The notes beneath the pieces are model-generated. The model ran no database searches. It was not told the DNA's origin and worked only from the letters and a program-made list of their open reading frames with translations. A stretch of 37,249 nucleotides of DNA from Candidatus Desulfofervidus auxilii. Lineage in GTDB: Bacteria; Desulfobacterota; Desulfofervidia; Desulfofervidales; Desulfofervidaceae. The position numbers and the translations under genes are program-made. The DNA lies in NCBI RefSeq assembly GCF_001577525.1, contig NZ_CP013015.1, forward strand, positions 759,657 through 796,905. Reading direction: 5' to 3'. Of this stretch, positions 12,887 through 36,388 are shown in pieces (within the stretch, counting starts at the first letter, position 1; each line of letters opens with the position of its first letter).

Positions 12887-12920
12887 ATTTTTAAAATTAA
12901 AAATTATTTCTAAAAAAGAA

Positions 12921-16307: not shown

Positions 16308-16323
16308 GTAATATAAACGGAAC

Positions 16324-17415: not shown

Positions 17416-17437
17416 AAGAAAGCACACCTACCTTGGT

Positions 17438-17611
17438 TTAAATTATAATATTTCTTCTTGTAATTTTTGTGTTTTTATTTTTCAATGTAATTCCCTTGTA
17501 ACATTTTTTGACCCCTACCCTTTTTGAAAGTGATTTGAGCAATTCTTGACAGTAAGGACTAATTCCTTTTATTTGTGGTAAGGTTCCAATTAAGGTTATT
17601 TTTGGGTTCAT
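17438..17611 (-). pseudogene. N-terminal remnant of a GT4 glycosyltransferase fused to a duplicated GT2 tail
   Basis: Reading leftward, an ATG with a good AGGTG ribosome-binding site starts 57 codons. The first ~30 (MNPKITLIGTLPQIKGISPY, then CQELLKSLSKRVGV) look like the start of a GT4 glycosyltransferase. The sequence then becomes lysine-rich and stops. Its last ~35 bases (17444-17478) nearly match 17850-17888, inside the 3' end of the neighbouring GT2 gene, apart from a 3-base indel. This looks like a recombination scar: a glycosyltransferase gene that lost its body when the WecB/cassette segment arrived. A short real peptide gene is unlikely. Confidence 0.6.
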
Positions 17612-17778
17612 GATTTATCACCTGTAAGTTTTGTTTTGCCCCTTTGCTGCCCCTTTATTCCTCTTTCAGTATATAATACGTTCCCTTACCAGTTGTAGTT
17701 TTTCTTGACTTCTTCTATCCTCATTTCATTCGCCTCTTATTTGTAAATATTTTAATGCCTTTTTATAATTTCTGCTTA
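17612..17778. other. Intergenic spacer, no recognisable feature
   Basis: Between the GT2 stop and the remnant start there is no open gene. Short minus-strand peptide stretches are interrupted by stops. It may be debris of the same rearrangement. Confidence 0.3.
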
Positions 17779-18765
17779 TTAGGGGTTAATGTCCCTATTA
17801 AAGCTATTTTTTGTTTCACGTCTCATATCAAATTCTATCTTCTTTAATCTATATAATATTTCTTCTTGTAATTTTTTTTGTGTTTTTATCATATCTGCAA
17901 TTAGCCCTAAGATTATTACCTGCAATCCAACTACCAAGAGTACCACCGTCAGCACTGCACTTGGTAGATATGGTGTTACTATTCCCGTCTTAAAATAGTG
18001 GACTAGCACCCTAAGACCCATTAAGAGACCTAGTAAGGTAATTGTCCCCCCAATTAGGGAAAATACCTTTAGTGGATTGTAGTCTCTGTAAGTCCTTAAA
18101 ATTATTGGTGCGCCCCTTTTGGCATAGCTAAATATATTAGAAATAAGTCGAGACTTTCCCTCCCTCTTTCTAAAGTTTACTGGTATCTCCTTTATCACCA
18201 TCCCATTGTTTACAGCCTGTAAGATTGTCTCTTGAACATAGGTATAGTCAGACATAATATTTAAACGAAGGGCAGTTTCCCTTGTAAATGCCCTAAAGCC
18301 TGTTTGGGCATCTGATACTGGATAACCCGATGCCATTCGTGTAACCCATGTGGCAATTTTATTTCCTATTCGCTTCTGAATAGGCATATGTTCAATCCAA
18401 CCCTTAAACCTTGAGCCAAGCACAATGTCTGCCTCACCATCTAAAATAGGTCTAATCAAATCAGGGATCTGTTTTTGATCGTATTGAAAATCTGCATCTG
18501 TATTGACAATGATATCAGCACCCATTTCTAAAGCAGTCTCTAAGCCCAGCCTAAATGCAGGTGCAAGTCCTTTATTTTCTTTAAAGCCAACAATTCTATC
18601 TGCACCTGCCTCCTTTGCCACCTTAACCGTATTATCTGTAGACCCATCATTTATTACCAATACCTCTACCTTTTCTATCCCCTCTATTTCCCTTGGGATC
18701 TCCTTTATTACCTTGCCTATTGTATTCTCTTCATTGTATGCGGGGATCGTTACAACAAGTTTCAT
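17779..18765 (-). CDS. DPM1-like family 2 glycosyltransferase with C-terminal membrane anchor
   Basis: This 328-residue GT-A enzyme resembles dolichyl/polyprenyl-phosphate mannosyltransferases. It shows VTIPAYNEENTIG (residues 4-16), VINDGSTDNT, the DxD region NTDADFQYD, GSRF and SDAQTGFRAFTRE. Two C-terminal transmembrane helices follow (about 232-255 and 270-295). It would load a sugar onto a polyprenyl-phosphate carrier for use by GT-C enzymes such as those encoded nearby. The start lies one base after the preceding stop, with GAGGGA upstream. It is the last intact gene of the leftward operon from 23.7 kb. Confidence 0.92.
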   Translation of the reverse strand: MKLVVTIPAYNEENTIGKVIKEIPREIEGIEKVEVLVINDGSTDNTVKVAKEAGADRIVGFKENKGLAPAFRLGLETALEMGADIIVNTDADFQYDQKQIPDLIRPILDGEADIVLGSRFKGWIEHMPIQKRIGNKIATWVTRMASGYPVSDAQTGFRAFTRETALRLNIMSDYTYVQETILQAVNNGMVIKEIPVNFRKREGKSRLISNIFSYAKRGAPIILRTYRDYNPLKVFSLIGGTITLLGLLMGLRVLVHYFKTGIVTPYLPSAVLTVVLLVVGLQVIILGLIADMIKTQKKLQEEILYRLKKIEFDMRRETKNSFNRDINP

Positions 18766-18766
18766 T

Positions 18767-19810
18767 CTATCCCTCTTCCTCTATCAATAATATAGAGAGA
18801 AAATAGATTAGCAAACAGGTAACTATTGCCAGTATGATGGCAAAAATTCCAAGGTAGCCAAACATTGAACCTATAATGCCCCCTCCAATAATCCCAAATC
18901 TTAAACTTAGCTCTTTATAATCCTTTGCAGAGATTAAGAGTAATCCTGACAATATTGCAGAGAATAGGGCAAAAAACATAATGACTAATTTGAATATGCC
19001 CAAAGAATCCCAGATTTTCTTTAATGGATTTGTTAGAGAAAAGAAAAAGACTATCAATAGAAAGATTATGATTATTGCTGAAATAAACCAAAAAGGAATT
19101 CTAAAGAAAAACCTATTTTCTTTATGACCAAAAGGCTTCTCAAGAGAGATTTCATAACATCCTTCCTCCTGCTTTAACACAATCTGAGACATAATTTTTC
19201 TTTTTATTTCAGATAAATTCATATTGAACTTCTCTTTAATCTCCTTTCTCCTAATGGCCACATAACCTATAAGTATAAGGATAAAGATACTGCCTGCAAG
19301 TGCATCTGAGAGCAGCATGTATGAAAGTTTTGTAATATAGATAAAACTCAATTTGGCTTTATTTGTTTTACCTTTTAAAATAAGATAATTTCCTTCTTTT
19401 TGAGATTTAAAATGCGGGTTTGAAGAAAGTAATTTTTCTCCTGCAACTATCTCTATTTCTACATCTGTATTATTGTTTATTTGAGGCAGATTAAAAGATA
19501 GTTTATACAGGCCCTGCCCCTTTGGCCTTGGTAATAAAAATGCACATTCAAACCTTTCATCTTGTTTCATAAAATAAATTTTATCTCCCTCTCTTTTAAT
19601 GGGGATAGCCCCTGAAAAAGAAATTATTCTTGCATCTCCAATATTTAGCCAAAAATCATCCTTTATCTCTGCGTTCAATGTCCCTTTCCCATACCAATAT
19701 CCAAATTGGCCATCAATTTTAGCGGACTCATAGATTATGTGAATCTCATCTGCTACGATGTTTAAGGGAAAAAGAAAAATTAAAAGGAAAAGTAAAAATC
19801 TAAATCTCAC
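18767..19810 (-). CDS. Membrane protein of unknown function in the glycan operon
   Basis: This 347-residue protein has a signal peptide or first helix (FLLFLLIFLFPLNIVA), an extracytoplasmic beta-rich domain (about 22-160), a transmembrane helix near 170, a cytoplasmic stretch (about 190-230) and three more helices at the C-terminus. I recognise no family. The start is a GTG; no ATG is available before the signal sequence. It overlaps the upstream gene by 11 bases and is 1 base from the DPM-like gene, so these are made together. A partner role with the DUF4350-like protein at the outer face of the inner membrane is inference. Confidence 0.6.
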   Translation of the reverse strand: MRFRFLLFLLIFLFPLNIVADEIHIIYESAKIDGQFGYWYGKGTLNAEIKDDFWLNIGDARIISFSGAIPIKREGDKIYFMKQDERFECAFLLPRPKGQGLYKLSFNLPQINNNTDVEIEIVAGEKLLSSNPHFKSQKEGNYLILKGKTNKAKLSFIYITKLSYMLLSDALAGSIFILILIGYVAIRRKEIKEKFNMNLSEIKRKIMSQIVLKQEEGCYEISLEKPFGHKENRFFFRIPFWFISAIIIIFLLIVFFFSLTNPLKKIWDSLGIFKLVIMFFALFSAILSGLLLISAKDYKELSLRFGIIGGGIIGSMFGYLGIFAIILAIVTCLLIYFLSILLIEEEG

Positions 19811-20891
19811 CTTGAATCATTTCCACCTTTATGTAATCTGCAGTTCTATATAGTCCAAATTCTCTTTTTACTACAATGAACCCAGTTACAGAAGAAGCGT
19901 TTTTCCTCCAATTGATTTTTACTCTTATTACCTTTGTTTCTCCAGGTTTAATCTTTAAACCATTCCCATCAACCTGGACAAAGACTGTGTCTTTTAAATA
20001 AGATGGCACTTCAAATTTTAGCACTTGTTCTATGTCTCCTCTGTTTTTTATTGCAAAAATGGCTGTGCTTGTTTCCCCTTTCTTAACAAAAAATTCAAGT
20101 TTATCAGTAGAGTAAACAATGGTATCATCAGTTTCTTTATGCTCAAACCAATCAAATATACTCAAAGCAAAATTAAGGTTATTTCCCTTTTTGATGTTTT
20201 TATTTAAAAGAATGTCTTTATCTCCAAGAAATGCCACACTGCCTTCTCCATACCTTATTCCTGCAAAGACAACAAAATTTGCCTTTTTTACCTTTTTCCC
20301 TGGCCTTTCCCACACACTGGGCCATTCTTTTGCCTCAATAAAATCTGTTTGAAGCAAGACTTCTGGCTCTTTTTCTAGAGATATAGGGATAGGTGAGATA
20401 AGGTAGATTTCCCCCATGCCTGATTCTATCTTTACTTCATCCCCTAGATAATAATCTAAAAATTCTGCACCAAACCTTCTGGCAAGTTTATTCATATTAG
20501 TCAATGATTCAGGAGTATCTGTTACTAAAAGCAATTTCCCACCATTTGCTACAAAGTCTTTTATTAGTGCTATCTCTTCTCTCTTAAACCTTCTATCTGA
20601 ATTTATTAAAATTAGGATGTGTGCCTCATTTATAAGATCTTTGGTTATAGTGTCTGCATTTAGCCCCATTTCAATGTTATCTTTTACATTATATCCCTTA
20701 AACTCCAGCTCATCCCTTAGGGTGCTTAAACCAAGGGGACCCTCATTTTCCATCCCAAAAAAACCTGTGGAGTTATCAAAAACTATGGTTTCTTTATTAT
20801 TAATATCTTCATTATTAAGTGCAATAGTAGTACTTATATGAGTAAAGATGTATAAAATTAAAATAATCATATAGACAAAACCCCTCTTCAT
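19800..20891 (-). CDS. Exported DUF4350-like (GATase-like fold) protein
   Basis: This 363-residue protein has an N-terminal hydrophobic signal (VYMIILILYIFTHISTTIA). A flavodoxin or glutamine-amidotransferase-like domain follows, with FDNSTGFFGM, LINEAHILILINSDRRF, IKDFVANGGKLLLVTDTPE and YGEGSVAFLGDKDIL. These are landmarks of DUF4350-type proteins, which lack the amidotransferase cysteine. The last ~90 residues (AIFAIKNRGDIEQVLKFEVP, KPGETKVIRVKINW) form an immunoglobulin-like module like those that bind carbohydrate or act as spacers. No enzymatic role can be assigned. It starts 4 bases after the GT-C gene and overlaps the next gene, so it belongs to the glycan operon. Confidence 0.65.
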   Translation of the reverse strand: MKRGFVYMIILILYIFTHISTTIALNNEDINNKETIVFDNSTGFFGMENEGPLGLSTLRDELEFKGYNVKDNIEMGLNADTITKDLINEAHILILINSDRRFKREEIALIKDFVANGGKLLLVTDTPESLTNMNKLARRFGAEFLDYYLGDEVKIESGMGEIYLISPIPISLEKEPEVLLQTDFIEAKEWPSVWERPGKKVKKANFVVFAGIRYGEGSVAFLGDKDILLNKNIKKGNNLNFALSIFDWFEHKETDDTIVYSTDKLEFFVKKGETSTAIFAIKNRGDIEQVLKFEVPSYLKDTVFVQVDGNGLKIKPGETKVIRVKINWRKNASSVTGFIVVKREFGLYRTADYIKVEMIQGEI

Positions 20892-20895
20892 TTTT

Positions 20896-22740
20896 TTACC
20901 CTTTTTGTTTATGATTATAAATAAATATATGTTTTATGTCCTTTCCCTGACAATCTAAGACAAGGACCTTCTCATTGTCTTTAAATTTCATATTTTTAAG
21001 TTCATCTATAGAACCTATCATAATTGGCTCCTTTCCTGTTTTAGAATATATCAAGTATTTGATCCAATTACCAAAGGAATAGTTGCTTGCATTTTCTAAA
21101 GTCCAATCAAATTTTCCCACACAAATTACATTGTCGTATACCTTTATAGATAGGGATTGTAATTTGTCATAAACATCTGCACTAATAAATTGTGTCAACC
21201 GTGGCTTGTGTATTGTCATCTTTTTACAGGCAGTTAGGCCAAAGTCAACAAATAATAGCAAAAGTAGCGTAAAAATCAAGCCTATTTTCAGATTTTTTTC
21301 CTTAATATTAATGGAGGTATTATATAAAAATAGACCTGTGATGATTGCCAAAGGGATGTCCATGTATATGGAAAATCTGAGGTTATATAAATACGGAGTT
21401 GAAGGAAAAATGTGATAGCCAAGCAAGGTAGAAATAAAAAAGTTAACTATAATAAGACTTAAAAATATAGGCAGTGAAAAGGAAAGGGCAGAGATTTCTT
21501 CATGAGAGAGGCCTTTATAGGTATACACCCTAAAGAAATAAAATATGGTAATTAAAAATGCGGTCATATTAGTCAGGGCAATTATTGGGAATGCATAATA
21601 GGTATAAGGGGTTATAATTTGGGCATTTGAAGACTTATGGGGCAATAGATTCATCATTAGTTCATTGTTTTTATATAAATAAATTACGCCTAATAAAATC
21701 AAACACATAAAAGAAAAGGTAATTAATTCTGCCTTATTTAACTTTTTACTTAATATAAGGTAGGTAATGTATGCAACAGAAAATATTACCATTTTTGCAA
21801 ATGCAGTTATTGCTGTCTTCCATAGAAAGAATATAGAAATGAGGAAAAACAATACTTTAATAAAGGAACGTTTTTTAATATAATTTACAAAGATTCCAAG
21901 TGATAAAATAAGCCAGAATTTTCCAAAAATTTCCTTATAAAGGTCAGAAAACAATAATTCTCCAGGCAGAGTAGCAAAGACAAGTGAGGAGTAAAGGGCC
22001 GTCTTTTTATTTGTAAGGGATTTTACCAAGAAATATAAGGCAAGGATTGAAAAGGAATCTATCAGAGGTATAATGATTTTTGGGATAAATAAAAGGTCAA
22101 GGCCCAAAAGATTTAAAATTTTTGCTGTAAGCCCTAACCAAAGGGTGGCAAAGTTTACGGTATCTAAATAGGGATTTTTGCTAAATAAAAGACCTTTTTT
22201 TAAAAGAGAAAAAAAGGGCATTTCTACCCCTTTAATTGCCTGAAGGAGATACATGGGGACATCATATCCAATAGGGATTTTGGGCAACCCAAATACCAAA
22301 AGGCGCAACAGAAAGCCAAAGAGAAAAATAATAAGTAAAATATAAGCATCTTTTGCTATTTCTAATCTAAAGATATTTTTTAGCTCACTTATCTTTTGTT
22401 TCTTTTGGTGTTTTTTTAAAACAATAAAACTGATATAGCCAGCAATTGTGGAGCTAAAAAGGACTAAAAAAATACTGCCATAGGGAAGTAGATGGGCAAA
22501 CCAACTAACAATCACTATAGATAAAAGCAAAATAATTAGACCAAGCGTTTTTTTGACCAGCTCACCTACTTCAAAAGGCCTAAGCTCCTGCTTTATGGTA
22601 GTATAGAGGTATATAAAAGAAATTAAAACCATGCCAACTATATGAAAATAAATAAAATAGGGATTCATTCCCTTAACATTTCTCACACTATAAAGCACAC
22701 TGATAAATAATAGATTTATAAAGATAACAAATGCAATCAT
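20896..22740 (-). CDS. GT-C-fold membrane glycosyltransferase-like protein
   Basis: This 614-residue protein has about 13 transmembrane helices. The first three or four form an extra N-terminal block before the GT-C core, which starts near residue 130. An acidic residue sits in the expected first-loop site (PIGYDVPMYLLQ, D160). The C-terminus (about 510-614) is a soluble periplasmic domain. It probably uses a polyprenyl-phosphate sugar, made for instance by the DPM-like enzyme of the same operon. The start overlaps the upstream GT2 stop as ATGA. Assignment to a numbered GT family is not possible from motifs alone. Confidence 0.7.
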   Translation of the reverse strand: MIAFVIFINLLFISVLYSVRNVKGMNPYFIYFHIVGMVLISFIYLYTTIKQELRPFEVGELVKKTLGLIILLLSIVIVSWFAHLLPYGSIFLVLFSSTIAGYISFIVLKKHQKKQKISELKNIFRLEIAKDAYILLIIFLFGFLLRLLVFGLPKIPIGYDVPMYLLQAIKGVEMPFFSLLKKGLLFSKNPYLDTVNFATLWLGLTAKILNLLGLDLLFIPKIIIPLIDSFSILALYFLVKSLTNKKTALYSSLVFATLPGELLFSDLYKEIFGKFWLILSLGIFVNYIKKRSFIKVLFFLISIFFLWKTAITAFAKMVIFSVAYITYLILSKKLNKAELITFSFMCLILLGVIYLYKNNELMMNLLPHKSSNAQIITPYTYYAFPIIALTNMTAFLITIFYFFRVYTYKGLSHEEISALSFSLPIFLSLIIVNFFISTLLGYHIFPSTPYLYNLRFSIYMDIPLAIITGLFLYNTSINIKEKNLKIGLIFTLLLLLFVDFGLTACKKMTIHKPRLTQFISADVYDKLQSLSIKVYDNVICVGKFDWTLENASNYSFGNWIKYLIYSKTGKEPIMIGSIDELKNMKFKDNEKVLVLDCQGKDIKHIFIYNHKQKG

Positions 22741-23678
22741 CTTGGGAATAGAAATAACCTGAATGGGCTTACCTTAAATTTGAGGCAGCCATAAAGAACA
22801 GATATTATTAAGATAAATGAGCCAATTGTCTGCAACACTAAAAAAGAGAAAAATTCAAAAATGTTTACACTCCACTTACGATAGAATAATTCAACTATAG
22901 TTGTTAAAGGTAGTCCAATAAAGAATAAAGGATTTAAAAATCCCAATAGAGAAAAAAGTATGTATAATGGGGTAAATAACTCAAAGGGAAATTTTATGTA
23001 TTTTTTATATAGCCTAGGATGCTTTTTGAAGAGCAATGGGTCTATAAAAAATCTTATTTTATTTTTGAGCACTTTAGACCAACTTTCCTCTACAAAAAGG
23101 TGATATACTAAGACCTCTGAAGCAAATTTGATAGTATACCCATTTTCTATAATTGTAAATGCCAGGTCTGAATCTTCCCTAAAGTGATAGCAGGCAGGGA
23201 AGCTTTCATCAAAATAGATTTTATTCAAAATTGCTTTTTTATAAGCAATGTTACAGGTTGGATAGCGGCCTCCATAAAGATTTATTACACAGTGAGAGAA
23301 AGGAGTTAAAGCATGTTTTGGAATGGTTTTTCCTTCAACCCCTCCAATTTGCCCGTCAAATGCTTCATTAATCGCCTTTAGCCATTGTCTTGAGGCGATA
23401 CAATCATCGTCAATAAAGGCCACTATATCACCACTTGCCATTTTAATACCTAGATTTCTGGCACAGGCAGGGCCTTTATTTTCTTGAAAGATGTATTTAA
23501 TATCTAAATTTTTTTTAAAACTATCTACAATTTCTTTTGTTTGGTCTTTTGAACCATCGTCTACTACTATAACTTCAAAATTTTTATACTCCTGTTTACA
23601 CAATGAAGTTAAACATTCTTTGAGTAACTTTGCCCTGTTATATGTAGGTATTACAACACTTATCTTTTCTAGAAACAC
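22737..23678 (-). CDS. Family 2 glycosyltransferase
   Basis: This 313-residue GT-A enzyme shows SVVIPTYNRAKLLKECLTSL, VIVVDDGSKDQT, ACARNLGI and the acidic metal site FIDDDC. It ends with two or three membrane helices (about 225-305). It would add a sugar to a lipid-linked intermediate on the cytoplasmic face. The GTG start has GGAG 7 bases upstream. It heads the leftward operon; the 98-base gap to the divergent flippase gene must hold promoters for both. Confidence 0.9.
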   Translation of the reverse strand: MFLEKISVVIPTYNRAKLLKECLTSLCKQEYKNFEVIVVDDGSKDQTKEIVDSFKKNLDIKYIFQENKGPACARNLGIKMASGDIVAFIDDDCIASRQWLKAINEAFDGQIGGVEGKTIPKHALTPFSHCVINLYGGRYPTCNIAYKKAILNKIYFDESFPACYHFREDSDLAFTIIENGYTIKFASEVLVYHLFVEESWSKVLKNKIRFFIDPLLFKKHPRLYKKYIKFPFELFTPLYILFSLLGFLNPLFFIGLPLTTIVELFYRKWSVNIFEFFSFLVLQTIGSFILIISVLYGCLKFKVSPFRLFLFPR

Positions 23679-23776: not shown

Positions 23777-25216
23777 ATGAATATATCTTTGGGAAGAGGG
23801 ACACTGTATTTCACCATAGCCCAGGTGATGTTTTTAGCAAGTGGATATGTAATCCATGCAGGTCTAGGAAGGATATTAGGACCTGCCTCTTATGGAATAT
23901 TTGGGGTGGTAATCTATCTTGTCACTCTACCTCAAAACCTCCTTAACACAGGCATTCCTTTAGCAGCCTCAAAATATATTGCAGAGGATAATAGTAGGGC
24001 TAAAGCAGTGATGCATAAAACAACCAAACTGCAATTAGTTTCATCCCTAATTGTCTTTTGGGTATATTTTTTACTTGCAGGCGCTTTTTCTAACCTGCTA
24101 AAAAGCCCATCTTTATGTAATTATATTAAAATTTCTGCCTTTATTATACCTGTAAGTGCCTTTTATTCACTATATACAAATTTTTTAAATGGGTTTAGAT
24201 GGTATGACAAGCAGGCCCTGGTGCTGATTATATCCTCTATGACCAAAGTGATAGGAGTATTTATGTTAGTTTTACTAGGTCTCAGGCTTTATGGGGCAAT
24301 TTTGGGATATTTAATGGGGCCTTTAGCAGGGTTAGCAGTAGGCTGGTATTTTTTAAAAGGTGAGGGGGAAAAAAATAAAAACAGGTTTAAGTATAAAAAA
24401 ATTATAAATTTTGCCATACCTGTTATTGTTTTTTCTATCACTATCAACTTCTTAATTAGTGCTGACTTATTCTTTGTAAAGGGAATCCTTATGGACAATA
24501 TACAAGCAGGCTATTACACTGCTGCCTCTATGTTATCAAGGGTCCCTTTTTATATTTTTAGTGTATTGGGGAGTGCTTTATTTCCTGCCATATCCAGGTC
24601 AACCGCCCTAAGAGATATAGAACAAACCCAAAATTATATAATAAATTCTATGAGATACCTGTTAATGTTTTTAATCCCTACAATAGTTGTTTTTAGTGCT
24701 ACATCCAACAATTTAATTAATCTTTGTTATTCCTTGAAATATTTACCTGCTAGTACTTCGTTAAGCATTTTGTTCTTAGGATTTGGTTTTTTTACCGTAT
24801 TCTCAATTTTTGCAAATATTATTACCGCTAGTGGAAAACCCAGGATTGCTATGCTAGCTGTATTGCTCTTGCTGCCAATATGTATAATTTTAAATACCAT
24901 TTTAATACCACGATACCACTTAGAGGGTGCTGCTTTAGCAACAACCATTACTTCATTTTTAGGTAGTTGTATAACAGGAGGCTATGTGTTTATTTATTTC
25001 AAAGTCTTAATAAACAAAGTTTCGTTAGCAAAAATTTGTGGAGTTTCTATTGTTATTTATTTTATGGCAATTTTATGTGGTTCTGCCTCACCACTTTTGC
25101 TACCGCTGCTTTATGTGATGTTATTATTAGTTTATTTTATTATGCTTTTTTTAATAAAAGAACTTAGAAGAGAAGACCTAAAGACATTCAAAAAAATTAT
25201 CTATGGCCAAGGATGA
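23777..25216 (+). CDS. Polysaccharide/oligosaccharide flippase (Wzx/MATE-like)
   Basis: This 479-residue protein has 12-14 transmembrane helices spread over its whole length. The start (GRGTLYFTIAQVMFLASGYV, then LGRILGPASYGIFGVV) is typical of the Polysacc_synt/MVF superfamily. It would flip polyprenyl-diphosphate-linked glycans across the inner membrane, after the cytoplasmic GTs and before the GT-C and STT3-like steps. AAGGA lies 7 bases before the ATG. It overlaps the next gene by ATGA and is divergent from the leftward glycan operon. Confidence 0.9.
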   Translation: MNISLGRGTLYFTIAQVMFLASGYVIHAGLGRILGPASYGIFGVVIYLVTLPQNLLNTGIPLAASKYIAEDNSRAKAVMHKTTKLQLVSSLIVFWVYFLLAGAFSNLLKSPSLCNYIKISAFIIPVSAFYSLYTNFLNGFRWYDKQALVLIISSMTKVIGVFMLVLLGLRLYGAILGYLMGPLAGLAVGWYFLKGEGEKNKNRFKYKKIINFAIPVIVFSITINFLISADLFFVKGILMDNIQAGYYTAASMLSRVPFYIFSVLGSALFPAISRSTALRDIEQTQNYIINSMRYLLMFLIPTIVVFSATSNNLINLCYSLKYLPASTSLSILFLGFGFFTVFSIFANIITASGKPRIAMLAVLLLLPICIILNTILIPRYHLEGAALATTITSFLGSCITGGYVFIYFKVLINKVSLAKICGVSIVIYFMAILCGSASPLLLPLLYVMLLLVYFIMLFLIKELRREDLKTFKKIIYGQG

Positions 25217-26045: not shown

Positions 26046-26282
26046 ATGCCATTAAAGGTAAATATTCACGAGGCAAAAACCCAATTTTCTCGACTTTTGG
26101 CCAGGGTGGAAAGTGGCGAAGAAATTATTATTGCCAAGGCAGGAAGACCCATTGCCCGTTTGGTGCCAATAATAGAAAGACCCAAAGGGCGCACTCCAGG
26201 AAGTGCGGAGGGAAAGATTATTATATCACCAGATTTTGATGCCCCATTACCTGAATCTATCTTAAAGGCATTTGAGCAGTGA
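26046..26282 (+). CDS. Phd/YefM-family antitoxin (VapB-type partner)
   Basis: This 78-residue protein has the Phd/YefM DNA-binding start (VNIHEAKTQFSRLLARVESG) and EEIIIAKAGRPIARLVPI. An acidic/proline C-terminal tail (ISPDFDAPLPESILKAF) would wrap around and block the toxin. It neutralises the adjacent PIN toxin and represses the operon. GGAGGTGA is a near-perfect ribosome-binding site, as expected for antitoxin excess. It overlaps the toxin gene by 4 bases. Confidence 0.92.
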   Translation: MPLKVNIHEAKTQFSRLLARVESGEEIIIAKAGRPIARLVPIIERPKGRTPGSAEGKIIISPDFDAPLPESILKAFEQ

Positions 26283-26665
26283 GAGTACTTTTAGATACCC
26301 ATACCTTTTTGTGGTGGATTTCAAATGATACTAGGCTATCATCTCGTGCTCTTGAGGTTATCAGTAATGGGAATAATGAATTATTGCTTAGTGCTGCTAG
26401 TGGCTGGGAGATTGCTATCAAAGTTCGACTTGGAAGATTGCAACTACCTTATGAGCCAGAGCGTTTTATCCCTGAACAATTGGTCATCAACGCAATTCAA
26501 AGTTTACCTATTAAGATAAGTCACGCTTTACACACCTATAGCCTTCCAATCTATCACCGGGACCCTTTTGACCGTATAATTATTGCCCAAGCCCAGTTGG
26601 AAGGCTTACCTATTTTGACTTCTGATCCTCAAATTGCTAAATATAAAGTGGAGATCATCTGGTAA
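26279..26665 (+). CDS. PIN-domain ribonuclease toxin (VapC family)
   Basis: This 128-residue PIN-domain protein would cleave RNA, usually tRNA or rRNA, when released from its antitoxin. The acidic active-site set is intact: D6 (LLDTHTFLWW), E44 (SGWEIAIK), D95/D98 (HRDPFDR) and D116 (TSDPQI). Full length, GTG start overlapping the antitoxin stop. A short palindrome repeat begins 19 bases after the stop and may act as the operon's 3' end. It lies between inverted copies of repeat family 2, an accessory context. Confidence 0.92.
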   Translation: MRVLLDTHTFLWWISNDTRLSSRALEVISNGNNELLLSAASGWEIAIKVRLGRLQLPYEPERFIPEQLVINAIQSLPIKISHALHTYSLPIYHRDPFDRIIIAQAQLEGLPILTSDPQIAKYKVEIIW

Positions 26666-26700: not shown

Positions 26701-26790
26701 AGAATTTTAGCCAAAGTTTGTTGCCTTACTTGGCTGTAATTCTTGACTATCCATAAAACTTATGCTTAAATGTGTATTGGGGTAAGGAGT

Positions 26791-27150
26791 ATGGATAAAG
26801 AAGGCGTTGTTACTGCTATAAAGCATTTTATCCTACCTGAACTTAAAGAGATAAAACACAATCAGGCAAAGATGAGTATAAGGCTTGATGCTGTAGAAAA
26901 GCGCCTTTCTGATATAAATGGGCATCTAGTTGATCAAAGCCGAAGGATTGATGAGACAAATAACCGCATTGATGAGGTAAGAACTGAGCTAACTGGCAGG
27001 ATTGATGCTACCAACAATAGAATTGACCAATTAACCTTTCAGGTAGGAAAAATAGCTCAAGAGATGGAGCGGATTAAAAGAGAAGAAAGTGTTACCTCAG
27101 ATATCTTAACCCGCCTAAGGGCACTAGAGCAAAAAACCGCTAATTTATAA
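26791..27150 (+). CDS. Small coiled-coil protein (RIDETN-repeat family)
   Basis: This 119-residue soluble protein is almost entirely heptad coiled coil. It opens with a conserved-looking segment (VVTAIKHFILPELKEIKHNQ), followed by HLVDQSRRIDETNNRIDEV and the echo RIDATNNRIDQLTF. The paralogue at 29391-29773 shares HLVDQSRRIDETN exactly and a similar PEL start. An in-frame ATG at 26770 adds 7 residues; 26791 matches the paralogue's start, though its AAGGAG lies unusually close to the ATG. Function unknown. It lies 125 bases after the PIN toxin gene. Coiled-coil genes of this type recur in thermophile accessory regions. Confidence 0.6.
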   Translation: MDKEGVVTAIKHFILPELKEIKHNQAKMSIRLDAVEKRLSDINGHLVDQSRRIDETNNRIDEVRTELTGRIDATNNRIDQLTFQVGKIAQEMERIKREESVTSDILTRLRALEQKTANL

Positions 27151-27726: not shown

Positions 27727-27852
27727 ATTAAACAAAATGGGCCAAAACAGGCACAAAAATTTTCATGGGAAAGATGTGCCTATGAAACATTGAAGCCTTA
27801 CTTAGAGGTATTGGCGAGTTATCAAATAGTTATCAAGAATGAGGCTTTTTAA
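27727..27852 (+). pseudogene. C-terminal remnant of a GT4 glycosyltransferase
   Basis: The frame after a TAA gives PKQAQKFSWERCAYETLKPY then LEVL, matching the usual GT4 C-terminus (FSWexxAxxTLxxYxxVL; compare FSWNETAQKYLKIF in the gene at 30394). It runs to TAA at 27850-27852, overlapping the convergent DUF2079 3' end by about 20 bases. The rest of the enzyme is absent. Confidence 0.5.
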
Positions 27853-29359
27853 AGATAAAAAACCCATCATAAGCATAAATCTTAATCCAAGTTTTATTTA
27901 TCTTGTTAAAGACATTCCAGTGGGTCTTTATCAAACGTGAGTCTCTGGCTAGAGCATCTTTTATGACTTTAGTGCGTTTTTCTCCTAAAAAATTAATTAA
28001 AGAAATGGCTGGTTCATAGCCTTTTATAAAATAAGGTCTTTTTAAATCTAATATGATATAGTCTGCCTTAAAAATACCACTAGGGTAAAGAAATATCTTT
28101 TTTCTCTGTGATAAATAACCACAATTTAAAAAATTTTGATAGGAGATCTTAAGTTTGGGGTCAGAAGGAATATATGTCTTTAATGCCTGCCAGATTTTTA
28201 TGTCTCTTTTGGTTGGTATGTAAGCATTTTTATAAAAAGGCCAACTATATCCAAGCTTTTTGACCCAAAAGACCTTGGATAATGGTGAACAGCTAAAAAT
28301 AATGTGGAAAAATAAAGCTATAGCTAATAGAAAGGTATTTAAAGTCTGTTTAGATAACTTAAACTTTGAGCAAAAATTATAAACTTTAGGCAAGGCATAG
28401 ATAAAGGCCACAAAAACAGGGGTAATAATAGCTGCGTGATGGTGATTAGAATATATATAATGACCTACTTTTTGGGAAAGAAGGGAAATAGTAATAATAG
28501 GCAGAGCCGGTATGAGTTCTAAGGGGGATAAAATACATAAAAAGAAAAAAGGGGCAAATAAGGCAATAAGATAAATTATCTTTAAGGGATTAGTAAAAAT
28601 CTCTTTTAAAATGACCCAGGGATGGCTAAGAATATAAATACACATTTTTAATGGAGTTTTCCCCAAATACCCAAATGCCCAAGAAGAAAGATAACTCATT
28701 CCTCCAAATTTAGGGATGACCTTAACAGTAACTAAATAGAATAAAAATAGACAAAGGATAAAAAGAATACCTCCTAAAAATGGCCTGCGGTATTTGAATA
28801 TTAAATATATACCAAAGGCAGCGGCTGTGAGGATAAAGGGTTCCTTTAAGAAACAAAGGGATAAAATTAGGCCAGTTATTAAAATTATGGATTTATGATT
28901 TTGAAGGCTATAAAAAATAGCAAACATGATGGGGATTAGCCAACAATCAACATGAAAGTCAAATAAAGCAATCCACCACAAGGCAAAGTAAAGATAATAT
29001 AGGATAATAATGAAAGCAGGTGATACAATTTTCAATTCTGGATTAGTCTTTATTATTTTTTCTAAAAAGATGCCCCCTAAAACAAGGGCAAATGCTTGAG
29101 AGATAAGGAGAATAATAGAAGATGAATAGATTTTGTATATCAGACTATATATAAATAGGACAGGACGGAAGTGATGTCCTCCAGAAAGAAGACCAGAGTA
29201 ATCCCCAAAATAGGAACATGTATAAATATAATGTTCAATTATTCCCAAATCATACATAGAGGTGTGAAAGGAGAAATATTTTAAAAAACTTAGGATAACT
29301 AATAGAAGAAAGATAAAAATATGAATTAAAGAGGTTTTATTTTTCAATCTAAAAGACAA
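27833..29359 (-). CDS. DUF2079 membrane protein (GT-C-like)
   Basis: This 508-residue protein has about 11 transmembrane helices and the DUF2079 landmarks: MYDLGIIEHYIY near residue 35, GGHHFRPVLFI, IALFDFHVDCWLIP, LSFLKEP-like CFLKEPFI, and SNHHHAAIITP. DUF2079 proteins are GT-C relatives found with glycan genes; donor and acceptor are unknown. The only available start is TTG (29359), with GAGATG upstream. It is separated from the coiled-coil gene by about 30 bases and lies within the interval bracketed by family 2 repeats. Confidence 0.82.
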   Translation of the reverse strand: MSFRLKNKTSLIHIFIFLLLVILSFLKYFSFHTSMYDLGIIEHYIYTCSYFGDYSGLLSGGHHFRPVLFIYSLIYKIYSSSIILLISQAFALVLGGIFLEKIIKTNPELKIVSPAFIIILYYLYFALWWIALFDFHVDCWLIPIMFAIFYSLQNHKSIILITGLILSLCFLKEPFILTAAAFGIYLIFKYRRPFLGGILFILCLFLFYLVTVKVIPKFGGMSYLSSWAFGYLGKTPLKMCIYILSHPWVILKEIFTNPLKIIYLIALFAPFFFLCILSPLELIPALPIITISLLSQKVGHYIYSNHHHAAIITPVFVAFIYALPKVYNFCSKFKLSKQTLNTFLLAIALFFHIIFSCSPLSKVFWVKKLGYSWPFYKNAYIPTKRDIKIWQALKTYIPSDPKLKISYQNFLNCGYLSQRKKIFLYPSGIFKADYIILDLKRPYFIKGYEPAISLINFLGEKRTKVIKDALARDSRLIKTHWNVFNKINKTWIKIYAYDGFFIFKKPHS

Positions 29360-30159: not shown

Positions 30160-30300
30160 TGGCTATTTCATTCCCTCACTATTTCACTACTCACTGATTT
30201 AATGTTTTGGCATTTTGGCCTTTGGATTTTTTAGACCATATTTAAACGTTTGTTCTTTTTGTTAAATTACTTATGGCCTGACTTTGACGTAGGCCTGATA
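30160..30300 (+). repeat. Dispersed repeat family 2, right copy
   Basis: GGCTATTTCATTCCCTCACT, ACTCACTGATTTAATGTTTT and GGCCTGACTTTGACGTAGGC match the reverse complement of 25684-25824. The end (ACTTTGACGTAGGCCT) is also related, in inverse orientation, to the start of family 1 (AGGACTTCGTCAAAGT), giving the joined 29841-30300 element TIR-like ends. Confidence 0.8.
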
Positions 30301-30314
30301 GAGGCACGCCTTTT

Positions 30315-30331
30315 TCCACTTCGTAGGTGGA
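30315..30331. repeat. Short palindromic repeat, copy 3
   Basis: TCCACTTCGTAGGTGGA again, followed by AGTGGAGAAATTTT, just upstream of the GT4 gene. As at 25844, it lies beside a family 2 repeat copy. Confidence 0.8.
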
Positions 30332-30393
30332 AGTGGAGAAATTTTCTGGTAAGCTTCTTTACAATCGCTCCCTCTTTTTCCATAATAAATCTA

Positions 30394-31461
30394 ATGATTA
30401 TCGGCATAGACATAAGGTGGCTCAGTTTCAAAGGAACTGGTCTTTACACTTATTTATCAAATCTTTTGACCGTTCTTCTTGAGATAGATAGAAAAAACCA
30501 ATATATATTTTTTTACAATGAAAGTAAGGAGAAAATTTTCCCTTATCAAAAAAATCTAACTTACAAAAGAGTGAGTGCCAAACCGTTTCTGTTTAAGGAG
30601 AAGTTTTTATTTTTTGAGATATTAAAAAGAAATAAATTGGATATATTTTTTGAACCTCATTTTAATTTACCCCTCCTACTTCCTAAAAAATTGCCTGTGA
30701 TTCTGACTATTCATGACCTGACCCCACTTATTTTTCCTCAATTTTTCTCTTTCTTTGAGCGGATTTATTTTCGCTCTATCTTAACCCACGCTATAAAAAG
30801 GGCCAATCATATCATTGCTGTTTCTAAATACACTAAAGACTGTTTAAAGAAAAGATTTTCTAAACTGCCTAAAATATCAGTGATTTATCAGGGAAGGCCA
30901 AAACTTAATAATGCTGAATCAACCACTGATTTATCCATACCCCTGCCTTATATACTTTATTTTGGTAACAAAAGGGGGTATAAAAATTATAAACGAGTGA
31001 TAGAGGCTTATGGGATGCTGAGGACTCGATTATCCCAATATCATCTGGTTATCGTTGGTATAAATGGACAATCTTCTGAAAATATCATCTTTCTCAAAAA
31101 TATATCTGAGACAGAAAAGGCCCTTCTTTATAAAAAAGCCTCTCTTTTTGTATTCCCTTCCCTGAATGAAGGATTTGGGTTTCCTCTTTTAGAGGCCATG
31201 CAAGTAGGTGTACCTGTTATAACCTCTAATCTTTCTTCGCTACCTGAGGTAGCTGGCAGGGCAGCCTATTTTGTTAATCCATTTGAGGTTGACGAAATAT
31301 CTGAGGGGATGTATAAGCTATTGACAAATAAGGGTTTAAGAAAAGAGTTGATAAAAAGGGGACTTCAAAGAAGCAGGATTTTTTCTTGGAATGAAACAGC
31401 TCAAAAATATTTAAAAATCTTTCAAGAATATGCATCCTTTGGTTGTCATACCTGTATTTAA
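30394..31461 (+). CDS. Family 4 glycosyltransferase (GT-B)
   Basis: From the ATG at 30394 the protein has 355 residues and begins as this family does (MIIGIDIRWLSFKGTGLYTY). The frame is open for 48 more codons upstream, but those lie in repeat DNA and do not look like protein, so the longer start is rejected. Motifs: DLTPLIFPQFF, KRANHIIAVSKYTKDCL, the donor lobe YFGNKRGYKNY, and an intact EX7E in LNEGFGFPLLEAM with GVPVITS. It uses a nucleotide sugar in the cytoplasm. It is the first gene of a tightly overlapping rightward operon ending in the STT3-like gene; its end overlaps the next start by 32 bases. Confidence 0.9.
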   Translation: MIIGIDIRWLSFKGTGLYTYLSNLLTVLLEIDRKNQYIFFYNESKEKIFPYQKNLTYKRVSAKPFLFKEKFLFFEILKRNKLDIFFEPHFNLPLLLPKKLPVILTIHDLTPLIFPQFFSFFERIYFRSILTHAIKRANHIIAVSKYTKDCLKKRFSKLPKISVIYQGRPKLNNAESTTDLSIPLPYILYFGNKRGYKNYKRVIEAYGMLRTRLSQYHLVIVGINGQSSENIIFLKNISETEKALLYKKASLFVFPSLNEGFGFPLLEAMQVGVPVITSNLSSLPEVAGRAAYFVNPFEVDEISEGMYKLLTNKGLRKELIKRGLQRSRIFSWNETAQKYLKIFQEYASFGCHTCI

Positions 31462-32092
31462 TGAAGAAAACACAATAGAATCCCTCATTAATGAACTTTT
31501 GGCCTTAGGTTTTAAAGATATTTTGATTATAGATGATGCAAGCGAGGATAGTTCCATTGAGATTGCAAAAAAGTTAAAAGTAGAAACTATTTCCTTACCT
31601 TTTAATATGGGCACCTGGTCAGCCATTAGGGTGGGATTTAAGTATGCCTTGGATAAGGATTATGAGCAAGTAATCACTATAGATGCTGATGGTCAACATA
31701 TACCCAATGATATACCTAAACTGCTAAATGGGCTGAGAAAGGGATTTGATATTGTTATTGGTGCCTGTCCACAAAGGGCAAATATGGCTAAAAAGGTTTG
31801 TTGGTGGCTGTTTAGAAAATTTTCAGGTCTTAAGATTAACGATTTTACCTCTGGGTTCAGGGCTTATAGTAAGTCAGCCTTTAGCAAGTTTTCTACATAC
31901 AATGGGGCCAACCTGGAGTATCAAGATGTAGGGGTGCTGATTATGGCCAAAAAGTTTGGTCTTAAAATAGGAGAAGTGCCTGTGGAAATGAAGTCCAGAA
32001 CATGGGGGAAGTCTAAAGTATTTCCTTCTTTAAAAAGCATTTTAAGATATTTTTTAATTACTTTTACCATTATTATGGTCAAGGGGCGGTAA
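31430..32092 (+). CDS. Family 2 glycosyltransferase (polyprenyl-phosphate type)
   Basis: This 220-residue GT-A domain resembles DPM-type enzymes: VVIPVFNEENTIESL, ILIIDDASEDSS, metal site DADGQH, DFTSGFRAYSKSA and VEMKSRTWGKSK. It lacks its own membrane anchors. The next gene encodes a DUF2304 protein, a common partner that probably supplies the membrane attachment. The start lies inside the preceding GT4 gene. Confidence 0.9.
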   Translation: MHPLVVIPVFNEENTIESLINELLALGFKDILIIDDASEDSSIEIAKKLKVETISLPFNMGTWSAIRVGFKYALDKDYEQVITIDADGQHIPNDIPKLLNGLRKGFDIVIGACPQRANMAKKVCWWLFRKFSGLKINDFTSGFRAYSKSAFSKFSTYNGANLEYQDVGVLIMAKKFGLKIGEVPVEMKSRTWGKSKVFPSLKSILRYFLITFTIIMVKGR

Positions 32093-32454
32093 TGTCTTAC
32101 AGAACTGTTTTGGTTTTGATAGGTATCTGTGTTTTTATTGCAGTTATATCCCTAGTCAGGAAGGCAAGACTCCAAGAAAAACATGCAATATGGTGGATTT
32201 TCATAGCCTTGGCGGTATTAGTCTGTAGTTTTTTCCCCTCTATTATAGACTGCATAGGAAGATATCTAGGAATTCACTATCCTCCTATTTTTCTACTTGT
32301 TATTGCCGCCTGTCTTATCCTTATTAAACTTCTCTCACTAAATATCTCTATTTCTGAAAATGAGGTCAAAATTAAAGAGTTAGCCCAACGACTGGCCATT
32401 ATGGAAAAAAAGCTTACTGATATCAAAAAAGATGAAGATACTTCACTTAAGTAA
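32092..32454 (+). CDS. DUF2304 membrane protein
   Basis: This 120-residue protein has three transmembrane helices (about 5-22, 32-50 and 62-82) and a C-terminal coiled coil (NEVKIKELAQRLAIMEKKL). This is the layout of DUF2304 proteins, which usually sit next to DPM-like GT2 genes as here. It probably holds the GT2 at the membrane. The start overlaps the GT2 stop by one base and its end overlaps the next gene by 23 bases. Confidence 0.88.
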   Translation: MSYRTVLVLIGICVFIAVISLVRKARLQEKHAIWWIFIALAVLVCSFFPSIIDCIGRYLGIHYPPIFLLVIAACLILIKLLSLNISISENEVKIKELAQRLAIMEKKLTDIKKDEDTSLK

Positions 32455-33565
32455 GTTCTTTTATCCTTATCTTGGAGGAATAGAAAATTTTATCTTAGAT
32501 TTGGCCAAAAGTTTAAAGGAATTTCCCCTAAAACTGACAATTTTAGCCCATCAACATAAATCTCTTTCAACTACCAGGAATGAATTTATTGAAAATATTA
32601 AGGTAATAAGGGCAGGGATCATATCTAATATATTATATACCCCCTTAAGCCCATCATTTATTTATAATTTTTTAAAGTTAAACTCCAAGTTTGATATAAT
32701 CCACATTCATATGCCCAATCCTAGTGCCATTTTGGCAGTAATGATGGCCAAACCCAAGGCCAAAGTTTTAATTCACTGGCATGCAGATGTGGTGGCCTCA
32801 GAGATAGATAAAAAGATAAAGGTGTTTTTTCCTTTTTATAAGCCATTGCAAGGGTTTCTTATCAAACGGGCAGATAAGATTATTGTAACTTCAGAACAAT
32901 ATTTAAAGCACTCCCAACCTCTATCCCCACTAGGGAAAAAATGTAGGGTTATCCCCTTGGGCTTGGATCCCTCTCGCTTGAAAAGTGATAAAGAAAGAGT
33001 GAATAAGATTAAAAAAAATTTTGGGGGAGAAATCGTTTTCTCTTTGGGGAGACTTTCTTACTACAAAGGGTTTAGTTATTTAATCAAGGCAATGAAATAT
33101 GTGGATGCAGTGCTTATCTTAGGAGGAGAAGGCAAACAGAAGGATAAATTAAAAAAACTTATAGAGAGTGAGGGACTTAAAAATAAAATTTTTTTGGTAG
33201 GGAAAATCGATGAAAAGGATTTAGGTAGTTACTATGAAGCCTGCACCCTATTTTGTTTGCCTTCTATAGAAAAAACTGAGGCATTTGGCATAGTTTTACT
33301 GGAAGCCATGCGATTTAAAAGACCTTTAGTAACCACAAACATAGATGGTTCAGGTATTAGCTGGGTAAACCAAGATGGAGTAACAGGTATTACTGTAGCC
33401 CCAAAAGATTCTTCAGCCTTAGCAAAGGCCATAAATACCATTATTTCCAATCCATATCTAGCAAAAAAAATGGGGGAAAATGCCTATAAAAGATTTGAAC
33501 AAAACTTTCATATCAATATCATTGCAGAAAAGATTTATTCTCAATATAGTGAACTGCTAGATTGA
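32432..33565 (+). CDS. Family 4 glycosyltransferase (GT-B)
   Basis: This 377-residue enzyme has KFFYPYLGGIENFILDLAKS at the start, HIHMPNP, HWHADVV, RADKIIVTSEQYLK, IPLGLDPSRL, SLGRLSYYKGFSYLI and an intact EX7E (TEAFGIVLLEAM). It resembles mannosyl- or rhamnosyltransferases of lipid-linked oligosaccharide pathways; the actual sugar cannot be told. It lies directly upstream of the STT3-like gene and overlaps DUF2304. Confidence 0.9.
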   Translation: MKILHLSKFFYPYLGGIENFILDLAKSLKEFPLKLTILAHQHKSLSTTRNEFIENIKVIRAGIISNILYTPLSPSFIYNFLKLNSKFDIIHIHMPNPSAILAVMMAKPKAKVLIHWHADVVASEIDKKIKVFFPFYKPLQGFLIKRADKIIVTSEQYLKHSQPLSPLGKKCRVIPLGLDPSRLKSDKERVNKIKKNFGGEIVFSLGRLSYYKGFSYLIKAMKYVDAVLILGGEGKQKDKLKKLIESEGLKNKIFLVGKIDEKDLGSYYEACTLFCLPSIEKTEAFGIVLLEAMRFKRPLVTTNIDGSGISWVNQDGVTGITVAPKDSSALAKAINTIISNPYLAKKMGENAYKRFEQNFHINIIAEKIYSQYSELLD

Positions 33566-33609
33566 AGTTTACTTGCTAATTGATTTAATTTATGTTTTTA
33601 TGAGCCTTG

Positions 33610-35634
33610 ATGAAAAAAGAAAACATCAAAACAGGTTTTAAATTTGCCGGCATATTCTTGGTAATATTTCTGGCTTTGGGTATTCGGTTTAAAGACGGGC
33701 CTCAATGGCAAAAATATAAGAATTTCTTCTTTTATCAAAATCATCCTAATTTATTGGGGCTTGATTCTTATTATTATCTTCGTTTGGCAAAGGAGCTAAA
33801 AACAGGCACATATAAACCCATTGATGAAAAAAGGTGTTTGCCTGAACTGGCACATCGTCCTAAACCACCTCCTTTAATCAGTGTCCTTACTGCTGGCCTG
33901 GCTCACTTTTTCCCCTTGCCTTGGGTGGCCTTTTTTCTTTCATCTCTTTTAAGCTGTATTATTATCATACCCTATTTTTTATGGGGAAGACAGCTAGGTA
34001 ATTATCTAACCGGTTTTATGGCAGCCTCCTTAGGTGTAAGCAGTTTTTTTTATTATTACCGCACTCAGTTAGGCTGGTTTGATACCGACTGTCTGAATGT
34101 ATTTTTTATCCTTATTATTCCTTATTTTTTTTATTGTTATTATGAAAATGTAAATAAAAAGAGGTATCTCTATCTCTTTCTCACTTTAATTTTTAGTATG
34201 CTTTTCTGTTGGTGGTGGATGCCAGCTAAATATATTATAGTCTTTCTTTTAGGATTACCCTTTTTAGCTTCGGTTTTCTTTTATAAACAGAAAAAAAGCA
34301 CCATTTATCTTAAAATAATCTTTGTTTGTGTTTTATCCTTTATTTTTCTCTTAAAATATCACCAGGGGCTTTCTAATTTATTCAAATTTATTGCCAAAGA
34401 ACCCCAAGGCGCATTCCCCAATATAGCTGCTTCTATCTCAGAATTAAGGCAGCCAACCTGGTCTAAACTGGGAAAATTGATTACTGGCAATCTTTTTGGT
34501 TTTTTTGTGGGCATTATAGGCATCCTTTCTTTATGGCGTTTTCGCCCAAGGCAGATGAGCTTTTTGGTTGTGCCCTTGGGTATAGGTCTGCTTTGTTTTT
34601 TTTCCAAGCGATTTTGCCTGTTTTTTATCCCATTTATCTCTCTAGGAATTGCTTATATTTGCTGGTCTTTAGGAAAGGAAATTAAAGAAAGAGGCAATAC
34701 CTTTTTTTCCTATATTTTTATGGCCTTTCTATTTTTATTGGTTCTCTTTTCTAATCTCAAGGCGGATTTTTCTTATAAACCATATCCCAAGTATCCTTCC
34801 TTTATGGCTCAAGGTCTCAGTAAAATTAAACATACTGCTTCAAAAGATGCTGCTATCTGGTGTTGGTGGGATATTGGCTATTTAAGTCAATACTGGTCAA
34901 ATCGAGGCACATTTATTGATGGAGGTGGCCAGAAACCTCAAAGGACTTATTTTACCGCCTTTCCTCTTACTACTACTAACCAAAGATTAGCCAGTCAATG
35001 GATAAAATTTTTTCTCATTCAGGGAGAAACGGGTTTTAATCGGTTAAAGAAAAAGTTTGGCACCAAGAAGGCCATAAATATATTAAAAACTGTGCTTTCT
35101 GTGTCTAAAGAACAAGCAAGGAGTTATTTAGAAAAATATAATTTAGGCCAATCCTGGCTCAATTTTTTCTTCCCCCAAAAAAATAGGGAAGTTTATCTTG
35201 TCCTTGACCGTAGTTTAATAGATAAGGCCTATTGGTGGTATTATTTTGGCACCTGGGATATAAAGACTAGAAAAGGGGACCATGCTTGTATACAAAAAAT
35301 TCCTCAGGCACAATTTAAAGGTCCTTTTCTTATGGGCAAGGAGTGTAAAATCAACCTGATTACTGGCATGGGTAAATGGCAGGAACATAGTTTTAACCTT
35401 AAGGCCCTGGTGATCATAAATTTAAAGAAGAAAATAATTCAAAAACGCTCTTATGGCCATACTCAAGGATTTATTTTAGAAATTGCTCAGCCGTATAATG
35501 AAGCATTTTTGGTTACAGAAAGATTTTATCACTCTTTGTTTAATCGCCTGTTTATCCTCAATCTGCCCTCAGCGCATTTTGTCAATATATATAATGCCCT
35601 TCATGCCTTTCAGGTATGGAAGGTGAGGTTTTGA
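33610..35634 (+). CDS. STT3/AglB/PglB-like oligosaccharyltransferase
   Basis: This ~674-residue membrane protein has about 12-13 helices in its first ~385 residues and a periplasmic C-terminal domain. It carries the family's catalytic landmarks (positions approximate): an acidic residue in GLDSYYYLRL (D53), the DxD-type loop GWFDTD (159-161), an external-loop-5 glutamate in ASISEL (279), and WWDIG (420-424), a variant of WWDYG. These bind metal, lipid-linked oligosaccharide and the Asn-X-Ser/Thr sequon in known enzymes. It should therefore transfer an oligosaccharide to exported proteins in the periplasm. TTG (33607) precedes the ATG (33610) by one codon; ATG is preferred. It ends the 30.4-35.6 kb operon. 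Confidence 0.85.
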   Translation: MKKENIKTGFKFAGIFLVIFLALGIRFKDGPQWQKYKNFFFYQNHPNLLGLDSYYYLRLAKELKTGTYKPIDEKRCLPELAHRPKPPPLISVLTAGLAHFFPLPWVAFFLSSLLSCIIIIPYFLWGRQLGNYLTGFMAASLGVSSFFYYYRTQLGWFDTDCLNVFFILIIPYFFYCYYENVNKKRYLYLFLTLIFSMLFCWWWMPAKYIIVFLLGLPFLASVFFYKQKKSTIYLKIIFVCVLSFIFLLKYHQGLSNLFKFIAKEPQGAFPNIAASISELRQPTWSKLGKLITGNLFGFFVGIIGILSLWRFRPRQMSFLVVPLGIGLLCFFSKRFCLFFIPFISLGIAYICWSLGKEIKERGNTFFSYIFMAFLFLLVLFSNLKADFSYKPYPKYPSFMAQGLSKIKHTASKDAAIWCWWDIGYLSQYWSNRGTFIDGGGQKPQRTYFTAFPLTTTNQRLASQWIKFFLIQGETGFNRLKKKFGTKKAINILKTVLSVSKEQARSYLEKYNLGQSWLNFFFPQKNREVYLVLDRSLIDKAYWWYYFGTWDIKTRKGDHACIQKIPQAQFKGPFLMGKECKINLITGMGKWQEHSFNLKALVIINLKKKIIQKRSYGHTQGFILEIAQPYNEAFLVTERFYHSLFNRLFILNLPSAHFVNIYNALHAFQVWKVRF

Positions 35635-35664: not shown

Positions 35665-36388
35665 ATGATGGAAAAAAGAGATAGAAAAAATTATTATAGA
35701 AGAGTTGCCAAGATTGCTGGCCCAATCCCCTGCCTTTAGGCACCAACTTATTGGTATTATGGCAGAGGTATTTGTAAGAAAGGATGAGCTTAAACAGGTG
35801 CTTGATGCAATAAAACTTCTAAGGGAAGATTTTAATAAAAGGTTTGAAGAGCACTCAAAGAGACTTGAAGAGATGTCCCTGAGACTAGAAGAGCACTCAA
35901 GTTATATTGGCCAACTCATAAAAAGACAAGAGGAACATTCAGAACGTATTAATGAGCTTATGAAGAGACAGGATTAGGGCACAAAGAGGCTAGAATCTGC
36001 TATAGGGGGGCCTTGGTGCCAGATGGGGTATAATGAGTGATGATTCTTTTAGAGAAGGATTAAAGGGTATTTTAAAGGAACTCGGACTTAAGGTGGAGAG
36101 ATATATTGACTATGATACAGAGGGCACTGTATTTGGTCGACCAGAACAAATAGACCTAGATATAGAGTGATTAAAGACAGTATAACCCTACTTGCAGAGA
36201 TAAAGTCTTCTATAAGTAGAGAAGAAATATATACATTTCAAAGGAAGGTTGAATTTTATGAAAGAAAAAAGGGGATAAAGGTTACTAGGAAGGCTGTAAT
36301 CTCACCCTTTGTTGACCCAAGGGCAAGACCCATTGCTGAGAGGTTAAACATAGAGGTATATACCTCTGGTTATGATGTAAGAATCTAA
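35665..36388 (+). pseudogene. Broken DUF3782-like coiled-coil plus PD-(D/E)XK nuclease-fold gene
   Basis: The reconstructed product has an N-terminal segment (EELPRLLAQSPAFRHQLIGI), a coiled coil with repeated (K/R)LEEHS units, then the nuclease-fold part GARWGIMSDDSFREGLKGIL, FGRPEQIDLDI, LLAEIKSSISREEIYTF, ISPFVDPRARPIAERL. Four lesions are seen: an extra A in a run near 35671-35676, an in-frame TAG at 35975-35977, a frame change in a G6 run near 36005-36010, and another near 36165-36170. The acidic D and E-x-K residues survive (DLDI, EIK). Function of intact relatives is not known to me beyond the fold. Confidence 0.75.

Follow-up and report, generated by a model that had tools for sequence, protein, structure and literature searches.

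Bacterial single-subunit oligosaccharyltransferases (OSTs) are exemplified by PglB of Campylobacter lari and C. jejuni (structures 5ogl, 6gxc and 3rce) and by DgPglB, DdPglB and DvPglB of Desulfovibrio, deltaproteobacterial sulfate reducers whose enzymes are biochemically proven OSTs, use undecaprenyl-pyrophosphate (Und-PP) glycans in E. coli and are relaxed at sequon position -2, DgPglB despite keeping the Arg at the position of PglB R331 (PMC4894442). In Euryarchaeota, N-glycans destined for the OST AglB are started on Dol-P, and not on Dol-PP, by the GT2 enzymes AglK and AglJ (PMC8993221, PMC3871713); catalysis is said to proceed by the same mechanism with single- as with double-phosphate donors (PMC8342417). 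Among Gram-positive cell-wall polysaccharide pathways, DUF2304 proteins act as GacJ-like partners of GacI-type GT2s, and both GacI/GacJ and WpsA/WpsB make Und-P-GlcNAc; the Lactococcus WpsA/WpsB product is a primer on which cytosolic enzymes build an oligosaccharide, to be flipped by a Wzx-like protein and attached by a membrane protein (PMC8327497). A limited search, covering open PMC papers only, returned no paper on monophosphate N-glycan donors in bacteria or on a link between STT3 and lipid-P synthases.

The window analysed here (37,249 nucleotides, C1:759657-796905 of the complete, 2,540,211-base genome of Candidatus Desulfofervidus auxilii) holds the sole STT3 gene found by searching that genome. 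This gene closes a five-gene operon encoded entirely on the forward strand: a GT4 glycosyltransferase (30250-31461, Pfam), a GT2 of the polyprenyl-phosphate sugar synthase type (31430-32092, PF00535; GacI/WpsA-, AglJ- and PpgS-like, with the AglJ and PpgS models under cut-off), a small DUF2304 membrane protein resembling GacJ/WpsB-type GT2 partners (32092-32454, PF10066 at 94.3 bits), a second GT4 (32432-33565, Pfam) and the STT3 protein itself. Successive genes overlap by 32, 1 and 23 bp, with a 41-bp gap ahead of STT3, in agreement with the operon described in the first-pass annotation; promoter and terminator scans gave signals no better than those of shuffled sequence.

The arrangement of the GT2 directly followed by DUF2304 (the sole copy in the genome, and also the sole one in the family sample) is that of GacI/GacJ and of WpsA/WpsB, the latter pair being followed by cytosolic glycosyltransferases, a flippase of the Wzx type and a membrane transferase; the Gram-positive systems differ in that their product goes to a rhamnan, not to protein, and that they contain no STT3. 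From the Campylobacter locus the window departs by the GT2/DUF2304 pair and by the lack of an initiating phosphoglycosyltransferase (PGT) in the locus, none having been found anywhere within the window. With the euryarchaeal Dol-P pathway (AglJ/AglK and AglB) it shares the linkage of a DPM-like GT2 to an STT3 protein and the fold of an Asn-glycosylating enzyme, whereas it is bacterial, includes a DUF2304 partner and GT4 elongation, and has a monophosphate donor that is putative.

Two further genes had been counted by the first-pass annotation towards a 'complete glycan locus'. Both the MOP/Wzx-like flippase (23777-25216, forward strand, PF01943) and the DPM-like GT2 (17779-18765) are indeed in the window, but as separate units beyond a reverse-strand gene (27833-29359) for a DUF2079, GT-C-like membrane protein (Pfam); with no PGT in the locus, 'complete' overstates the case. 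The flippase is a possible supplier in trans for the STT3 pathway.

The STT3 reading frame is intact and begins at either of two adjacent start codons, TTG at 33607 or ATG at 33610 (the start previously assigned), and runs to 35634 (675 residues counted from TTG). Its product matched PF02516 (STT3, N-terminal domain; 54.8 bits, cut-off 24.5) and PF21436 (the STT3/PglB/AglB core domain STT3-PglB_core; 54.3 bits, cut-off 23), and phmmer related it to the PglB structures (E=2.7e-20). An AlphaFold2 model built with 49 relatives as alignment reached a mean pLDDT of 92.7 and a pTM of 0.91, and Foldseek placed C. lari PglB structures at the top of its PDB hits (5ogl, TM 0.80, E 1.9e-29); eukaryotic Stt3 and archaeal AglB came next, and the other GT-C enzymes Dpy19, AftA and ArnT ranked far lower. 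The fold thus matches that of PglB over its full length, at 18% identity in the structural alignment. The score against the NCBIfam PglB equivalog (NF050801, 113.6 bits, under the curated cut-off of 1300) points to the same superfamily and away from a Campylobacter-type PglB. We conclude that the product is almost certainly a single-subunit STT3-type OST, and that it very probably N-glycosylates exported proteins; a protein N-glycosylation system, as had been proposed, is the best reading of the enzyme and its operon. The enzyme is a new, divergent representative of a known OST group, and its novelty is modest.

The conserved coupling of STT3 to the GT2/DUF2304 pair is the new part, absent from the first-pass annotation: in the nearest relatives of the window the conserved core consists of GT2-DUF2304, a GT4 and STT3. 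Two loci of family f39 (L126 and L127) carry, all on one strand and in the same order, GT4-GT2-DUF2304-STT3; L093 shows GT2-DUF2304-STT3 at the start of its contig, L133 and L046 show STT3-GT2-DUF2304, and in L091 a GT4 is convergent to STT3. The GT2s of these module loci are 36-48% identical to the window GT2 (48% in L093), and the GT4s beside STT3 in L091, L126 and L127 are 41-44% identical to the second window GT4 (32432-33565); the values for the nearest relatives (38-48% for GT2s, 41-44% for GT4s) stand well above the background of ~30% or less in other loci. The first operon gene (30250-31461) does not share this conservation, its best match beside another STT3 being at most 29% identical.

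The larger clade shows a related association, in which a longer DPM/AglJ-like GT2 (~285 aa) directly adjoins STT3, on either side and on the same strand, in 24 of 63 loci. Such GT2s fill 24 of the 72 slots next to STT3, compared with 9 among the 518 remaining ORFs (Fisher p=4e-17, a nominal value since the loci are related by descent), and ~60% of the relatives are without an adjacent GT2. Some STT3+GT2 pairs sit amid housekeeping genes (glnE in L049, 6787-14057; yidC and mnmE in L065, 4992-12058) and not in surface-glycan clusters. In another locus (L134:6037-9820, genome G194) the genes after STT3 encode a GtrA-like membrane protein and then a GT2, a further lipid-P-sugar set paired with STT3. 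The enzymes of family f41, which may represent the Desulfovibrio PglBs, match the window protein over only ~200-300 residues at 24-30% identity and have no GT2 neighbour; the absence of this neighbour applies to L128-L130, which we infer to be likely relatives of the Desulfovibrio PglBs.

The coupling of STT3 to GT2/DUF2304 suggests that the glycan is primed on undecaprenyl monophosphate, as in Euryarchaeota. By this scheme, the GT2 and its DUF2304 partner would load the first sugar on undecaprenyl phosphate in the manner of GacI/GacJ and WpsA/WpsB, GT4 enzymes would lengthen the glycan on the cytoplasmic face, and a Wzx-type flippase (possibly 23777-25216) would turn it outward. STT3 would then bind a divalent metal through D53, D159 and D161, D53 and E279 would activate the acceptor Asn while W420-W421-D422 recognise the Ser/Thr at +2, and the glycan would be transferred. 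We consider this scheme the likeliest because the module fits the WpsA/B and euryarchaeal pattern piece by piece, and we give the route as a whole an even chance. Its parts differ in strength: the GT2/DUF2304 pair probably makes a lipid-P-sugar that is used in the STT3 pathway, and that this sugar is the first of the glycan (i.e. that the donor is a monophosphate) we would place slightly below even. A wider reading, that one Thermodesulfobacteriota branch of STT3 enzymes draws on Und-monophosphate glycans instead of Campylobacter-type Und-PP donors, with priming by a DPM/GacI-type GT2 encoded alongside (DUF2304 present or not), is advanced tentatively. The link makes it testable whether some bacteria use monophosphate donors for N-glycosylation in the way that Euryarchaeota do.

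The main rival is a conventional PglB pathway, in which a distant PGT (PF02397 or WecA-like) would make the Und-PP-sugar, the GT4s would extend it and STT3 would transfer it, leaving the Und-P-sugar of GT2/DUF2304 for decoration by a periplasmic GT-C enzyme. Against the monophosphate route, the genome does encode two PF02397 proteins (at 355 kb and 2,488 kb) and two PF00953 proteins (at 1,556 kb and 2,217 kb), which could supply a pyrophosphate donor in trans; these genes lie 0.4-1.7 Mb from the STT3 locus, and the one at 2,217 kb is likely mraY because it adjoins a murD-like ORF. Decoration also has a precedent, since GacI/GacJ products serve this purpose in streptococci (PMC8327497), and by analogy the product of GT2/DUF2304 may do no more than decorate the glycan on the outside; GT-C-like membrane proteins are nearby (the DUF2079 protein), and the acceptance of Und-PP donors by the Desulfovibrio PglBs (PMC4894442) speaks in the same direction. 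Conversely, the operon contains no PGT, the genome's own PGTs used as queries recovered no homologue beside STT3 in the related loci, and a GT2 stands next to STT3 even in loci whose other neighbours are housekeeping genes (L049, L065). We regard the conventional pathway as a serious possibility that falls short of even. The position of PglB Y196 (Trp in much of the branch), considered as a marker of mono- versus pyrophosphate donors, does not follow the GT2 link.

The catalytic landmarks named in the first-pass annotation (DxD, loop-5 Glu and WWDIG) are borne out by Pfam, by the fold and by the aligned residues, and the predicted structure, compared with PglB and AglB, contains the STT3 active site. 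Equivalences were taken from the alignment to 5ogl (C. lari PglB) and from alignments of relatives, and residue roles from PMC6215017, PMC7226087 and PMC8342417. All on the forward strand, D53 (33763-33765) corresponds to D56 of C. lari PglB (metal and acceptor Asn), R152 with the metal site D159-T-D161 (34060-34089) to R147, D154 and D156, and R335 (34609-34611) to R375 (LLO phosphate, PMC6215017); S276-I-S-E279 (34432-34443) is the loop-5 TIXE/SVSE motif (defined in PMC8342417), whose catalytic Glu, E279, equals E319. All 50 aligned sequences share D53, R152, D159, D161, E279 and R335. The acceptor Ser/Thr pocket is represented by W420-W-D-I-G-Y425 (34864-34881), where W420-W421-D422 match W463-D465, I423 sits at the variable Tyr position of WWDYG and Y425 is the counterpart of the essential Y468. 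Differences from PglB are L291 (34477-34479, forward strand) in place of R331, K540 in place of I572 of the MI motif (L537-I-D-K540 opposite M569-L-R-I572 in the alignment to 5ogl) and DGGG in place of DGGK. The MI/DK motif is therefore not kept, a loss that alone does not exclude membership of the STT3 family, as the motif is a domain-specific part of the Ser/Thr pocket and not a set of catalytic residues.

It had been proposed that the Ile of WWDIG alters sequon preference, and the residue does differ from the usual Tyr and lie near the +2 pocket. Its column, however, is variable while W-W-D and the Y468 equivalent stay: the fourth letter was His in 48, Tyr in 8, Asn in 3, Ile in 2, Lys in 2, Met in 1 and Phe in 1 of 67 sequences (a count in which some rows are misaligned at this column), and a cleaner alignment of 50 gave 31 WWDHG, 4 WWDYG, 3 WWDNG, 2 WWDKG, one WWDIG and one WWDMG, the rest having other changes; Leu also occurs there in the phylum sample. 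By these alignments the position is unconstrained in this STT3 branch, and position -2 is read by the known determinant R331, so WWDIG is an improbable mark of altered sequon choice. The Arg at R331, which reads acidic residues at -2 and marks the enzymes of acidic -2 sequons, is replaced by Leu291 (ungapped alignment to 5ogl), from which a relaxed use of N-X-S/T is a reasonable prediction; it is not certain, because DgPglB is relaxed at -2 with its Arg kept. A divergent, intact OST without this Arg could be of use in glycoengineering.

That the protein is an inactive relic, or an STT3-fold glycosyltransferase acting on something other than protein Asn (e.g. a surface polymer), is very improbable: the low identity to PglB, the lost MI/DK motif and the low NF050801 score would favour it, whereas the metal site, the acceptor Glu, WWD and the Arg are all present and show little or no variation in the branch, Foldseek places C-mannosyltransferase, ArnT and AftA far below PglB, Stt3 and AglB, and the ORF is intact.

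The system had also been called uncommon, a description that does not hold in this phylum, where relatives (E<=1e-5) were present in 66 of 395 genomes drawn, or 38 of 246 genera, and where the Desulfovibrio PglBs have been characterised (PMC4894442). A scan of genome contigs with a single sequence found no STT3 relative; the alignment-based scan found 66 loci with one. Named relatives are mostly MAGs of Thermodesulfobacteriota or 'Deltaproteobacteria', and a few come from Gammaproteobacteria, SAR324, Acidobacteria, Verrucomicrobia-type and Aquificota records, and the closest are only ~33% identical to the window protein. In the STT3 tree, the window protein groups with or next to L091, L093, L096, L005 and L041, with two f39 sequences also near, and falls outside a 60-row, mostly WWDHG clade; the local fork is open and the exact placement uncertain. 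As both STT3 and DUF2304 are absent from four other genomes of the same family, the module is patchy, either acquired by this genome or lost from those four. In genome G203 (C1:2148903-2150607) an STT3 relative is split over three segments in different open frames and may be a copy that is frameshifted or broken.

The surroundings of the operon hold several further features. A separate surface-glycan region of low G+C content (12137-23678) encodes GT2s, a GT4, methyltransferases and large membrane proteins, among them one (20896-22740) that matched no Pfam family, together with a WecB-like epimerase (16324-17427) just under cut-off. Near the flippase unit, a PIN-domain, VapC-like toxin ORF (26279-26665) was recognised by eye, as was an IS110-like transposase ~1.3 kb past the operon (L109:3592-4797, C1:796591-797796), whose translation contains two ambiguous residues. 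The glycan operon has a small coiled-coil ORF on each side (26770-27150 and 35705-35977), and the heptad-like repeats of the two are similar.
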